Source: an uncultured archaeon A07HR60 (GTDB taxonomy: Archaea; Halobacteriota; Halobacteria; Halobacteriales; Haloferacaceae). From it: 56,768 nt of DNA. The first letter of the stretch is position 1; each line of letters starts with the position of its first letter. Shown in pieces: positions 3,993-56,768 of this stretch. The stretch covers positions 39,000-95,767 of the forward strand of contig KI543231.1 of NCBI GenBank assembly GCA_000496235.1, given 5' to 3'. Both the position numbers and the translations under genes were made by a program. The notes under the pieces were generated by a model. It searched no databases. It was not told the DNA's origin and saw only the letters and a list, made by a program, of their open reading frames with translations.

Positions 3993-6392
3993 TTAGAGTC
4001 TGTCGAGTCGCTGCTGGTCTGCCTCGGTGAGGAGCCGGCCACCGTATTCGTCTTCGAGCGCGGCAATCTCTTGGAAGCTCTCCCGAGCCGCCGACGTGTC
4101 CCCTGCGGACAACTGTACTTTTCCTCGCCGCCGGATAACGTCTGCAAGCCCACGTTTGCCTGCGTATCGGGGGAGTGTCTGCCGATAGTGGTTGGCCGCC
4201 GCCTCCAGGTGTTCTAATTGTGCATCCGTGTCGTCTTTCCGGCCCCGTCTAGTCGCCTCGGCGAGTTCCTGATGCGTCTCCGCAATCTGATGGGCCACAG
4301 TCTGTTCCTCGTACGGTTCCGAGGTCAGCTCCATTGCCTCGGACAGGAGTGTCAGAGACTTCCGAGGACTGGCTGTCTCACTATCGCGGAGGAGTTCATC
4401 AAGCTGATCCTGTCGTCTGAGTGCGTCACTCTTCCACACAACGTGTCCGCCGAAATCGATTGTGTACGCCGATTCGGCGCTGGCGCCGAGATCAGCGTCG
4501 GGATCACTGAGACGCACGCGACGTCTGCCGTCTTGCTCGTCGAAGGCCAACCGTTGGACGTTCCCGTGGTGATTCTCGTGGCGAAGCACCTGTTCGCCGG
4601 TGGCCGTTTCGAATAGATACGTGCTACAGTCGGGATTGAACGTGCTGGTGGCGACGTATTCGCCGTCACTCGTGAGCGCGACCGGGCCGATATTCGCGTC
4701 AAACTCGTGATTCACGAGTCGATGACCCGATCTCGCAAACACGTGAAGTGTTCCGGACAACGTCTCCCCCCAGTCATTCCAGTCGACCACCGCGAGGGTC
4801 CCGTCAGTCGCGACAGCACAGGCATTCGGTCGCCTGATCTGTGTGCTGAATTCGAGTTCCCCGCCCTGAAAGAGGAAAATCTGTCCCGCCTCCGCGGAGC
4901 CGTCGTCGGAACTGAATCGACCATCCCGGTAGGCGGCCGTGTAATTTCCATCTGTGGATTCGACCGTCAGAACGGCCACCTGTTCGCCGCCGTACTTGAT
5001 CGTGGTCTCGGTGGGGGCCCGTTCTGGCGTCGGCTCCGTTCTAGTCGCATCCTCCGAGTTGGGAGTAGATTCCGGCTGTGCGCCAGCCTGTGTCGAGACG
5101 GAATCTGAGTCTGCCCGGGGTCGGGATCGGGCTCGCGATTCCTGGTCGGAATCATCCGCGGGACCGTCTGTCGGCGATGACTCCGCCGGTATTCCCTCAC
5201 CAGCTGACGCTGTCTTCACAGCCGGGTCGTCGTCGCCAGACACCGAGCTTACTGCCGACTGGTCGTCACCAGATACTGACTCCACGGGTGGCTGACTCGT
5301 TGCTGCGGTGTCGGGCGATGTGGAGCCGGCGGTCCCGATATCGACCGACCGTCGATGCCACAAATAGACGCTCGCGGGGACGACCCCTAGAAACGGGACG
5401 AACGAGACCAGCCCGTAGAACCACCAGTATCGCGGCCAGTTGCCGTATTGTCGGACGTATCTCGCGTCGAGAAACAGCGCGAGTGGGAGGCCAAACCAGA
5501 CGAGAAACAAACTGACTCCCCACGCCGACGTCGACAGCGTGTTGACACTGAAGAAAACAGCCACCCATCCCGGAATCCCCAGTCCGATAGCCACCTTCGA
5601 GAGCGTGGTTGGGACTCCCGGGGAATCTGTCGTCGAATCTCCGTTACCGCCCGTTTCTGTCTGCGGGTCAGCTCCGCTGGAGGGCAGGTGTTCAGTCGTG
5701 GTCGTGCCCCCGCCCGTGTCTGGGCCTGTGTCTAGTGGCGTCTGTGTGCCGGTAGTAGCGTGACCACCGTTAGGTTCCGAAGAATCCTCAGAATCGACGG
5801 TGTGTACGAAGTCGAGATACTCGTCGACGAGATCTGCAGCTTCGACGTCCGCGACGATCCTGGCGAGATCGATCCCGTTGATGAGTTTCACGTTGAGCCG
5901 CTCCGCCAGATCACGAGCCTGCGACGTGTACTCGTTCGTCGTCACGACGACGACCTCGTCAGCGCCGTCGATCTGTTGGTCGAGACTGGCGTACTGCTGG
6001 ATCGCCGGCGACCCGACGGTCGTGTTAGGCCCGTATCGCTTAGCCTGGATGAGTGTGGTCTGGTCGTACGGCTCGCTCTTGCGAGCGATCACGTCTACGC
6101 CCTCGTCTGCTGAGGCCGAGGAGACGGTTGTTCGCCACCCCATCCGGTCCCAGATATCGCCGACAAAATGCTCGAAATCGTACGGGTCCATCTGCTGGAG
6201 AACTGCCCGTAACTCGCGTTCAGACTCGACCGGTCCCTCGTCAACCGGGAGTTCATCAACCGACTCCGGTGACCCGGTGTCTCGCGACCCTCCCGACTGG
6301 CTCGGGCTTGACCCGGAATCGCTGTCCGTGCCGGCCTGGCGGATCGCCCTGTACACTTCGCGGTACATGACGTACTTGAGAAATTGCTTCAT
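3993..6392 (-). CDS. Membrane-anchored Mrr-type restriction nuclease fused to a propeller-like and TPR-like region
   Basis: About 799 residues from ATG 6392 (an upstream ATG at 6437 would add 15). After a basic N-terminus MKQFLKYVMYREVYR comes an Mrr catalytic domain at roughly residues 65-185: DPYDFEHFVGDIWDRMGW, the catalytic ADEGVDVIARK and the IQAKRY triad element (D, Q, K). A Ser/Thr/Gly-rich linker leads to three hydrophobic helices at about 266-345, then an acidic Ser-rich linker. Next is a beta-rich region with repeated blade-like strands (TDGTLAVVDW, SDGEYVATSTFN). The C-terminus is alpha-helical and TPR-like. The Mrr family cleaves DNA, often modified DNA. The membrane anchoring and propeller suggest sensing, but that is inference. 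Confidence 0.8.
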   Translation of the reverse strand: MKQFLKYVMYREVYRAIRQAGTDSDSGSSPSQSGGSRDTGSPESVDELPVDEGPVESERELRAVLQQMDPYDFEHFVGDIWDRMGWRTTVSSASADEGVDVIARKSEPYDQTTLIQAKRYGPNTTVGSPAIQQYASLDQQIDGADEVVVVTTNEYTSQARDLAERLNVKLINGIDLARIVADVEAADLVDEYLDFVHTVDSEDSSEPNGGHATTGTQTPLDTGPDTGGGTTTTEHLPSSGADPQTETGGNGDSTTDSPGVPTTLSKVAIGLGIPGWVAVFFSVNTLSTSAWGVSLFLVWFGLPLALFLDARYVRQYGNWPRYWWFYGLVSFVPFLGVVPASVYLWHRRSVDIGTAGSTSPDTAATSQPPVESVSGDDQSAVSSVSGDDDPAVKTASAGEGIPAESSPTDGPADDSDQESRARSRPRADSDSVSTQAGAQPESTPNSEDATRTEPTPERAPTETTIKYGGEQVAVLTVESTDGNYTAAYRDGRFSSDDGSAEAGQIFLFQGGELEFSTQIRRPNACAVATDGTLAVVDWNDWGETLSGTLHVFARSGHRLVNHEFDANIGPVALTSDGEYVATSTFNPDCSTYLFETATGEQVLRHENHHGNVQRLAFDEQDGRRRVRLSDPDADLGASAESAYTIDFGGHVVWKSDALRRQDQLDELLRDSETASPRKSLTLLSEAMELTSEPYEEQTVAHQIAETHQELAEATRRGRKDDTDAQLEHLEAAANHYRQTLPRYAGKRGLADVIRRRGKVQLSAGDTSAARESFQEIAALEDEYGGRLLTEADQQRLDRL

Positions 6393-55955: not shown

Positions 55956-56768
55956 TCAGCTACCCACCGCTGAAGCGGTGGGCTTGTCAGTGGACATCCA
56001 ATCCGTGGACAAGTGAGTTACGTCACTCTCCTCAACGGAGAGGACCCCTGACATCAAGGCCAGCTGACAGGTGGCCGTCCCAGACGAACGCGTTTGGCTC
56101 GTCGGGAGTAGCGTCTTGAACATCTGTCGGAGTCCGATGTTCCGTGCTGCATTATACTCCGAATTCCACGACCGACCACACGCGACACACTCGAACTGTT
56201 TCTCGCGCCGATTCGAATCGCTCACGGTTTGGCACTCGGTGTGGCTGCACCCTTTGCTCGTATTCTTCGGATTCACGTACCCGACGCTTATCCCGTGCTC
56301 GGCAGGCTTGTACTCAGTGTATTCCTGCACGCGACCGAACATCCACTGCTGGTATTGTGGCAAGTTACTCAGTCGCTTTCGAATCCCGTTGAGCTTCTCG
56401 AAAGCGACGTGCGTCGAGCGAGTGTCCAGCCCATCCTGTAAGATGCTGTTCGAGATGAGGTGTGCATACTCGTCAACCCACGCTGATTCCGTGCCAGCCC
56501 GCTCATGCAGTCGGAGATAGGCACTTCGGGTCCCCGTTTGTTGGAGCTCTCCGCGCAGTTTCTCGTATTGGGTACGTCGGTGGTTGAGGTAGTCAGCGTT
56601 GCCGTGGAATCCACCAGCACTCGTCACAGCCGTCCAGCCTGTGACGTTGAGGTCCACGCCGAGGACACGACTCGTATCCTCTTGTGGCGCGTTCGAAACC
56701 TCTTCGTCGGCTCGTGCTGTCCAGTGGTGGTCAGAAAGGTCTTGTTTCAGACCGAGATGCAGCCAGTA
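55956..56768 (-). CDS. tnpB: RNA-guided nuclease TnpB, C-terminal two thirds
   Basis: About 270 residues are in the window; the reading frame continues past the right edge. RuvC-I Asp is in VLGVDLNVTGWTAV, RuvC-II Glu in VAFEKLNGIRKR, and the zinc finger is CSHTECQTVSDSNRREKQFECVACGRSW. RuvC-III would be an Asp in the usual D-Y-N-A-A, but here it reads NSEYNAARNIG, with Glu instead. That substitution may reduce or alter cleavage. The stop TGA at 55958-55956 lies beside the 3'-end hairpin. TnpB cuts DNA next to a TAM using a guide RNA transcribed from the element end. Confidence 0.9.
   Translation of the reverse strand, partial: YWLHLGLKQDLSDHHWTARADEEVSNAPQEDTSRVLGVDLNVTGWTAVTSAGGFHGNADYLNHRRTQYEKLRGELQQTGTRSAYLRLHERAGTESAWVDEYAHLISNSILQDGLDTRSTHVAFEKLNGIRKRLSNLPQYQQWMFGRVQEYTEYKPAEHGISVGYVNPKNTSKGCSHTECQTVSDSNRREKQFECVACGRSWNSEYNAARNIGLRQMFKTLLPTSQTRSSGTATCQLALMSGVLSVEESDVTHLSTDWMSTDKPTASAVGS
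55960..55985 (-). ncRNA. Hairpin of the TnpB 3' end (probable guide RNA scaffold)
   Basis: CCCACCGCT (55963-55971) and AGCGGTGGG (55974-55982) form a nine-pair stem with a two-base loop, inside the last codons of tnpB. The same position and type of stem mark the 3' part of haloarchaeal sense-overlapping transcripts of IS1341-type genes. A guide would be read on the minus strand toward lower coordinates, in the 55930-55960 region. Confidence 0.55.

Follow-up and report, generated by a model that had tools for sequence, protein, structure and literature searches.

A recurrent haloarchaeal fusion of a membrane-linked Mrr nuclease to a WD40-like propeller and TPR-like helices: a candidate antiviral protein

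A single gene in a stretch of DNA of the uncultured archaeon A07HR60 (contig KI543231.1; the whole stretch of 56,768 nt is called the window here, and coordinates are relative to it) encodes, in one chain of 799 residues, a nuclease domain of the Mrr type, a hydrophobic membrane anchor, and a C-terminal module composed of a WD40-like beta-propeller and TPR-like helices. We call the nuclease with its membrane part the Mrr-anchor and the C-terminal part the propeller-TPR module; L and G numbers stand for the loci and genomes examined. The architecture, that is the domain order, the intact active site, the folds and the recurrence of the fusion, is solid. As to function, we propose a DNA nuclease that is anchored in the membrane, is directed against viruses (or plasmids) and carries its own propeller-TPR regulatory module, a proposal as a whole about evenly poised between right and wrong. 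The parts of the gene are as follows.

3993..6392, minus strand: whole gene, with N-terminal helix, Mrr nuclease, membrane anchor, disordered linker, propeller and TPR-like tail (open frame; seven full-length homologues including its own; AlphaFold2 model)
6327..6392, minus strand: conserved basic N-terminal helix, residues 1-22 (alignment of five full-length proteins; model helix at 2-22, low confidence)
5856..6200, minus strand: Mrr PD-(D/E)xK nuclease, residues 65-179, active site E74, D100, Q116 and K118 (Pfam PF04471)
5625..5804, minus strand: disordered acidic linker, residues 197-256 (pLDDT below 50)
5550..5603, minus strand: membrane helix 1, residues 264-281 (hydropathy; model helix with pLDDT about 88-91)
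5451..5531, minus strand: membrane helix 2, residues 288-314 (hydropathy; model)
5349..5429, minus strand: hydrophobic segment 3, residues 322-348, broken in the model into 324-329 and 337-354, with conserved basic residues after it (model; lysine and arginine counts)
5034..5333, minus strand: disordered linker, residues 354-453 (pLDDT below 50)
4431..5012, minus strand: WD40-like beta-propeller, residues 461-654, 17 strands in about four blades (AlphaFold2; Foldseek; profile search)
3999..4427, minus strand: TPR-like tail, residues 656-798, seven helices (AlphaFold2; weak TPR matches in relatives)

The nuclease assignment rests on the Pfam family Mrr_cat, which is matched at E 2.9e-27 and 95.5 bits, against a curated cutoff of 21; the same stretch also matches Mrr_cat_2 and, below threshold, an inactive-REase model, and the Mrr families are the sole significant Pfam matches of the protein. 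Residues E74, G98, D100, Q116 and K118 are identical in 20 of 20 aligned homologues, fused and unfused, and the full-length AlphaFold2 model shows the Mrr fold. Judged by its sequence, the domain keeps the catalytic site and is a member of the Mrr catalytic PD-(D/E)xK superfamily, and an Mrr catalytic site within one chain of about 800 residues, claimed earlier in a reading of the DNA letters without database searches (the sequence-only reading below), is thereby confirmed, the gene lying on the minus strand. A recognition domain of the Mrr_N or SRA type was not found in the 799 residues by the Pfam scan (for Mrr_N up to E 10), and therefore we do not class the protein as an E. coli-type Mrr. 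There is no P-loop motif in the sequence, and no NTPase family in the Pfam scan.

For the C-terminal 345 residues together with 26 relatives AlphaFold2 gave a model of high confidence (pLDDT 92.2, pTM 0.83), in which 17 strands are followed by seven helices; sequences from plasmid records were left out of the structure-prediction inputs. Foldseek against the PDB returned WD40 propellers, with propeller-containing chains from E 3.2e-9, and the family profile run against PDB sequences also matches WD40, PkwA being the best (2.9e-9). With its stranded blades and its matches to propeller structures, the module is by its model a WD40-like propeller, possibly an open half-propeller that pairs with a second copy rather than a ring closed within one chain. 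The propeller that the sequence-only reading had placed at residues 350-660 is thus real, and its sensor idea, which depended on the blades forming a propeller, passed this test of structure model and Foldseek; the propeller is shorter, however, its blades taking up about 461-654, while residues 354-453 are disordered. The helical TPR-like tail expected by the same reading was also recovered: its helical repeat fold is confident in the model, and TPR profiles give weak matches, in at most 9 of the 27 relatives, no curated cutoff being shown passed. The searches made in Pfam, NCBIfam and PADLOC gave no curated family for the propeller-TPR module. Propeller-only proteins of about 230 residues, related to the C-terminal module and belonging mostly to one family (f7), occur as well (L093, L094, L095, L096, L135, L136, L137).

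The full fusion was found in seven genomes, which are that of the window, a relative of the same genus (L006/L044), Halorubrum vacuolatum (L007), and four others (L045, L089, L132, L046), and full-length fusions cover at least three families. With seven genomes showing it, the isolate Halorubrum vacuolatum among them, we reject an assembly artefact as the source of the fusion. In a class sample of 195 genomes, the propeller-TPR module or a part of it is present in 22, four of which carry it fused (G000, G009, G118, G209); in a phylum sample it is present in 7 of 197 genomes, and beyond the order there are just two matches, both partial, so that it is nearly absent outside haloarchaea. Neither the protein nor the full-length alignment, used as query, found a relative among viral contigs. 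Many haloarchaea possess the Mrr-anchor without the module, some with other extensions, namely:

L051, 8168-9250, and L013, 5938-7329: zinc ribbon
L050, 7573-8976: PH-like extension, weak match
L014, 6025-7230: short TPR extension, weak match

Genes for the free propeller-TPR module, without Mrr, also occur, some of them on plasmids. In the tree of the Mrr-anchor, fused proteins are intermingled with unfused ones, and the branches with good support require three changes or more; it is therefore likely that fusion or loss happened repeatedly, and a single origin of the fusion is rejected on the same branches. The sequence-only reading took membrane placement to be the unusual feature of this Mrr protein, which turned out otherwise, because membrane-linked Mrr is widespread among haloarchaea, and the alignment took in 13 non-fused relatives; what makes the gene unusual is its fusion to the propeller-TPR module. 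The same reading had named core-locus homologues with lost catalytic residues as the case that would speak for housekeeping, and the homologues are instead patchy, with these residues intact; we reject a housekeeping role on the grounds of the patchy distribution and the conserved catalytic residues. Beside the plasmid-type free module gene, and divergent from it, three genomes carry a protein of 545 residues with no convincing known family (L133, 9499-11136; L011 and L012, 4077-5714).

What supports the defence reading is that the propeller-TPR module recurs next to other DNA nucleases and within defence operons of a known type. PbeABCD is an archaeal antiviral module, shown experimentally (PMC6459918), and its methylase-linked CxC-ABC-ATPase/DndE relatives have been described (PMC10853773). 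In three loci a free propeller-TPR gene comes directly after a DndE-like gene, on the same strand and abutting or overlapping it, downstream of PbeC and PbeA genes:

L138, 7560-8666: free propeller-TPR gene
L139, 7524-8711: free propeller-TPR gene
L056, 7824-8660: free propeller-TPR gene

The matches in L139 reach 8.7e-229 for PbeA and 7.6e-231 for PbeC, and both L138 and L139 additionally carry methylase and HATPase genes. Of 294 genomes, 13 have a close PbeA relative, always as a single copy, and one gene would lie within 5 kb of another by chance in about 0.3% of cases in a genome of 3.3 Mb; the three operonic cases would therefore not be a product of chance. Among the 13 close PbeA/PbeC loci the module is present in 3, other genes taking the same position in 10, and thus it is an accessory of these operons rather than one of their core genes. 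The genome of the window has no PbeA relative in a search at E 1e-60, and a PbeA/PbeC/DndE-like partner is absent near the fused window gene, which hence does not belong to a PbeABCD system.

In three genomes, each from a different family, the free module gene is also convergent with a gene for a UvrD-PD-(D/E)xK helicase-nuclease; the L053 helicase-nuclease is 49% identical to the L134 protein, for which the Pfam scan was made. No recognised link was found for these convergent pairs.

L134, 8026-11974: free propeller-TPR gene with UvrD-PD-(D/E)xK gene
L053, 477-4613: free propeller-TPR gene with UvrD-PD-(D/E)xK gene
L091, 4919-9636: free propeller-TPR gene with UvrD-PD-(D/E)xK gene

A further free module gene, that of L052, has TmtA (4e-200) and a metallophosphoesterase/AAA pair in its vicinity. 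As to the fused genes, that of Halorubrum vacuolatum (L007) is near TmtA, that of L132 is near a type IIG restriction-modification gene and PDC-S11, and that of L089 is near RAMP genes that match Cmr3 and Csm3 weakly, a cluster which by eye resembles HRAMP (PMC8730458). The L014 gene, in which the Mrr-anchor is joined to a TPR-like tail, adjoins CRISPR I-B genes. The earlier description of the gene as a stand-alone system with no defence neighbours consequently holds in the window but not elsewhere: relatives of the whole gene or just of the C-terminal half are located within or next to Pbe, TmtA, type IIG, RAMP and CRISPR I-B genes.

From this we infer that a role in antiviral defence is probable, and we suggest the following course of action. 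The Mrr domain would be tethered by a flexible linker to the cytoplasmic side of the membrane, and the propeller-TPR module, on a second long linker, would probably be cytoplasmic too. The module may dock to a partner, or may recognise an invader-derived protein or DNA-processing complex, and either event would recruit or release the nuclease, which may then cut DNA close to the membrane, the place of entry or replication of viral DNA. The outcome would be the cutting of either the invader DNA or the host DNA, the latter as abortive infection. Both the cytoplasmic position of the module and the gating of the nuclease by it are putative. We may even suggest, with the possibility in mind that this goes too far and with more doubt than trust, that haloarchaeal immunity has in the module a "nuclease licensing" unit of general use, which, fused or separate, would serve membrane-bound Mrr, the PLD-helicase/CxC-ATPase Pbe systems and the UvrD-PD-(D/E)xK helicase-nucleases, while the membrane Mrr would be a platform for swapped sensors (propeller-TPR, short TPR, zinc ribbon, PH-like).

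Several facts weigh against a defence function. The window copy is surrounded, by eye, by housekeeping genes (DUF2070, a PurM-like protein, an amidase, CTP synthase and GMP synthase); the surroundings of the L046 fusion are of the housekeeping kind, likewise those of the same-genus relative, where the DUF2070 neighbour is retained, and most of the inspected genes that consist of the Mrr-anchor only have such neighbours too. Clear adjacency to recognised defence genes is seen in only 3 of the 7 fused genes, and these counts of defence neighbours stand without random-locus controls. The UvrD-PD-(D/E)xK partners of the module could be enzymes of recombination or repair. There is also no NTPase switch, the usual trigger part in comparable systems, and the predicted topology is tentative, since three complete crossings would place the propeller-TPR module outside the cell.

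It would be logical to ask, then, whether the protein is a factor of DNA repair or recombination, in which the module is an adaptor for end-processing nucleases (UvrD-PD-(D/E)xK or Mre11/Rad50-like) and the fusion ties their activity to the membrane for chromosome maintenance. The three convergent helicase-nuclease pairs, the metallophosphoesterase/AAA pair of L052, and the housekeeping setting of the window copy and two other fusions all agree with it, but the module also sits in PbeA/PbeC/DndE-like operons and near TmtA, and the fusion is rare and patchy while its free form is also plasmid-borne, unlike core repair genes, and so we consider this explanation unlikely. A type IV restriction enzyme, with Mrr cutting foreign-modified DNA, the anchor placing it at the site of entry and the module being mainly a scaffold, appears to us improbable in spite of the Mrr_cat domain: E. 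coli Mrr is a type IV enzyme, and the PADLOC mREase_IV models match the Mrr stretch at E about 3e-11, but the protein has neither of the recognition domains looked for in the Pfam scan, and the variable part of the chain that recurs elsewhere is the propeller-TPR module.

The remaining alternative depends on the topology. The sequence-only reading counted three transmembrane helices and supposed a signal read at the envelope; in a sensor of envelope stress or of extracellular ligands, three full crossings would put the module outside, where it would read a ligand and signal to the nuclease. Hydropathy does give three hydrophobic stretches, and two of the helices are clear (264-281 and 288-314); the third segment, however, is broken in the full-length AlphaFold2 model (pLDDT 76) and possibly re-entrant, so the count of three was too high or is unsettled. 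Summed over 20 homologues, lysines and arginines number 0 in the loop between membrane helices 1 and 2 and 66 in the stretch that follows the third segment, where aspartates and glutamates number 21, and under the positive-inside rule so basic a stretch is expected in the cytoplasm; because of this rule, and because a nuclease needs access to DNA, both ends of the protein are probably cytoplasmic. The free module genes, moreover, have by eye no evident signal peptide, and some stand in operons with DNA-processing enzymes. The charge pattern, the break in the third segment and the fact that the free-standing sensor relatives are soluble all favour a cytoplasmic place for both ends, and we regard an extracellular sensor as very improbable. 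A signal read at the envelope is thereby no more than a supposition, and a ligand, of which none was found, may yet exist. The hydrophobic anchor is also found at the N-terminus of a multi-membrane protein of 593 residues in the same genome (L003, 1498-3279, contig 9), and is therefore a shared haloarchaeal membrane module.

The nearest architectural precedent for the fusion is the third component of those MoxR-vWA conflict systems that have a beta-propeller, which consists of a globular domain, a membrane segment, and then TPR and propeller, and is proposed to act near the membrane (Kaur et al. 2020, PMC7159879). An effector, a membrane segment and a C-terminal propeller/TPR part are common to both, whereas these systems are bacterial and work with MoxR and vWA proteins, and the archaeal fusion has an Mrr effector and a propeller that precedes the TPR-like helices. 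No MoxR or vWA partner genes were seen by eye in the neighbourhoods of the window and the relatives, a dedicated profile search not having been made. In three of the Pbe-type systems there is a free gene with homology to the C-terminal half of the fusion protein, and the latter, compared with them, brings its own nuclease and membrane anchor. With E. coli Mrr it shares the Mrr_cat PD-(D/E)xK domain, and differs in having no detected Mrr_N, in its membrane anchor and in the extra propeller-TPR module. The PADLOC PDC-S02 candidates, single-gene defence proteins, match the Mrr domain at E 3.3e-18, a match limited to residues 61-181, with the membrane and propeller-TPR parts outside it. Zorya acts at the membrane, and the Mrr-like nuclease domain of its ZorD is matched at E 1.2e-10, but ZorD has a SWI2/SNF2 helicase and works with ZorAB, neither of which is present here. 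Avs4-type STAND sensors possess an N-terminal Mrr-type nuclease and a C-terminal repeat-based sensor, the same order as in the fusion; unlike them the fusion has its anchor in mid-chain and no NTPase, and is therefore not a STAND sensor. An earlier description of the architecture of Mrr-anchor and propeller-TPR module was not found in the literature searched (subscription papers lay outside the search), and the Mrr form of the effector-membrane-propeller/TPR layout, without NTPase, appears to be undescribed before.

Archaeal immunity is much less explored than bacterial. If our proposal is true, haloarchaea would possess a one-gene DNA nuclease located at the membrane, with its own sensor and without an ATPase switch, the sensor half of which would be a shared part of several of their defence machines; the propeller-TPR module would then be a searchable handle for further systems and for what such nucleases detect.

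At the level of the gene, the reading frame is uninterrupted, running on the reverse strand from an ATG at 6392 to 3993 over 799 codons and a stop, and the plus strand of this interval is riddled with stops. A GTG start is possible 45 bases upstream; the ATG is supported because the homologues open with the motif MK(Q/R)FL(R/K)Y at the equivalent position. Residues 1-57 are helix and disorder in the full-length model, and M1, K2, Y7, Y10, R11, E12, Y14 and R18 of the N-terminal helix are invariant in the five full-length proteins aligned. At the end of the window, by eye, a TnpB-like transposon protein (55956-56768) runs off the sequence.
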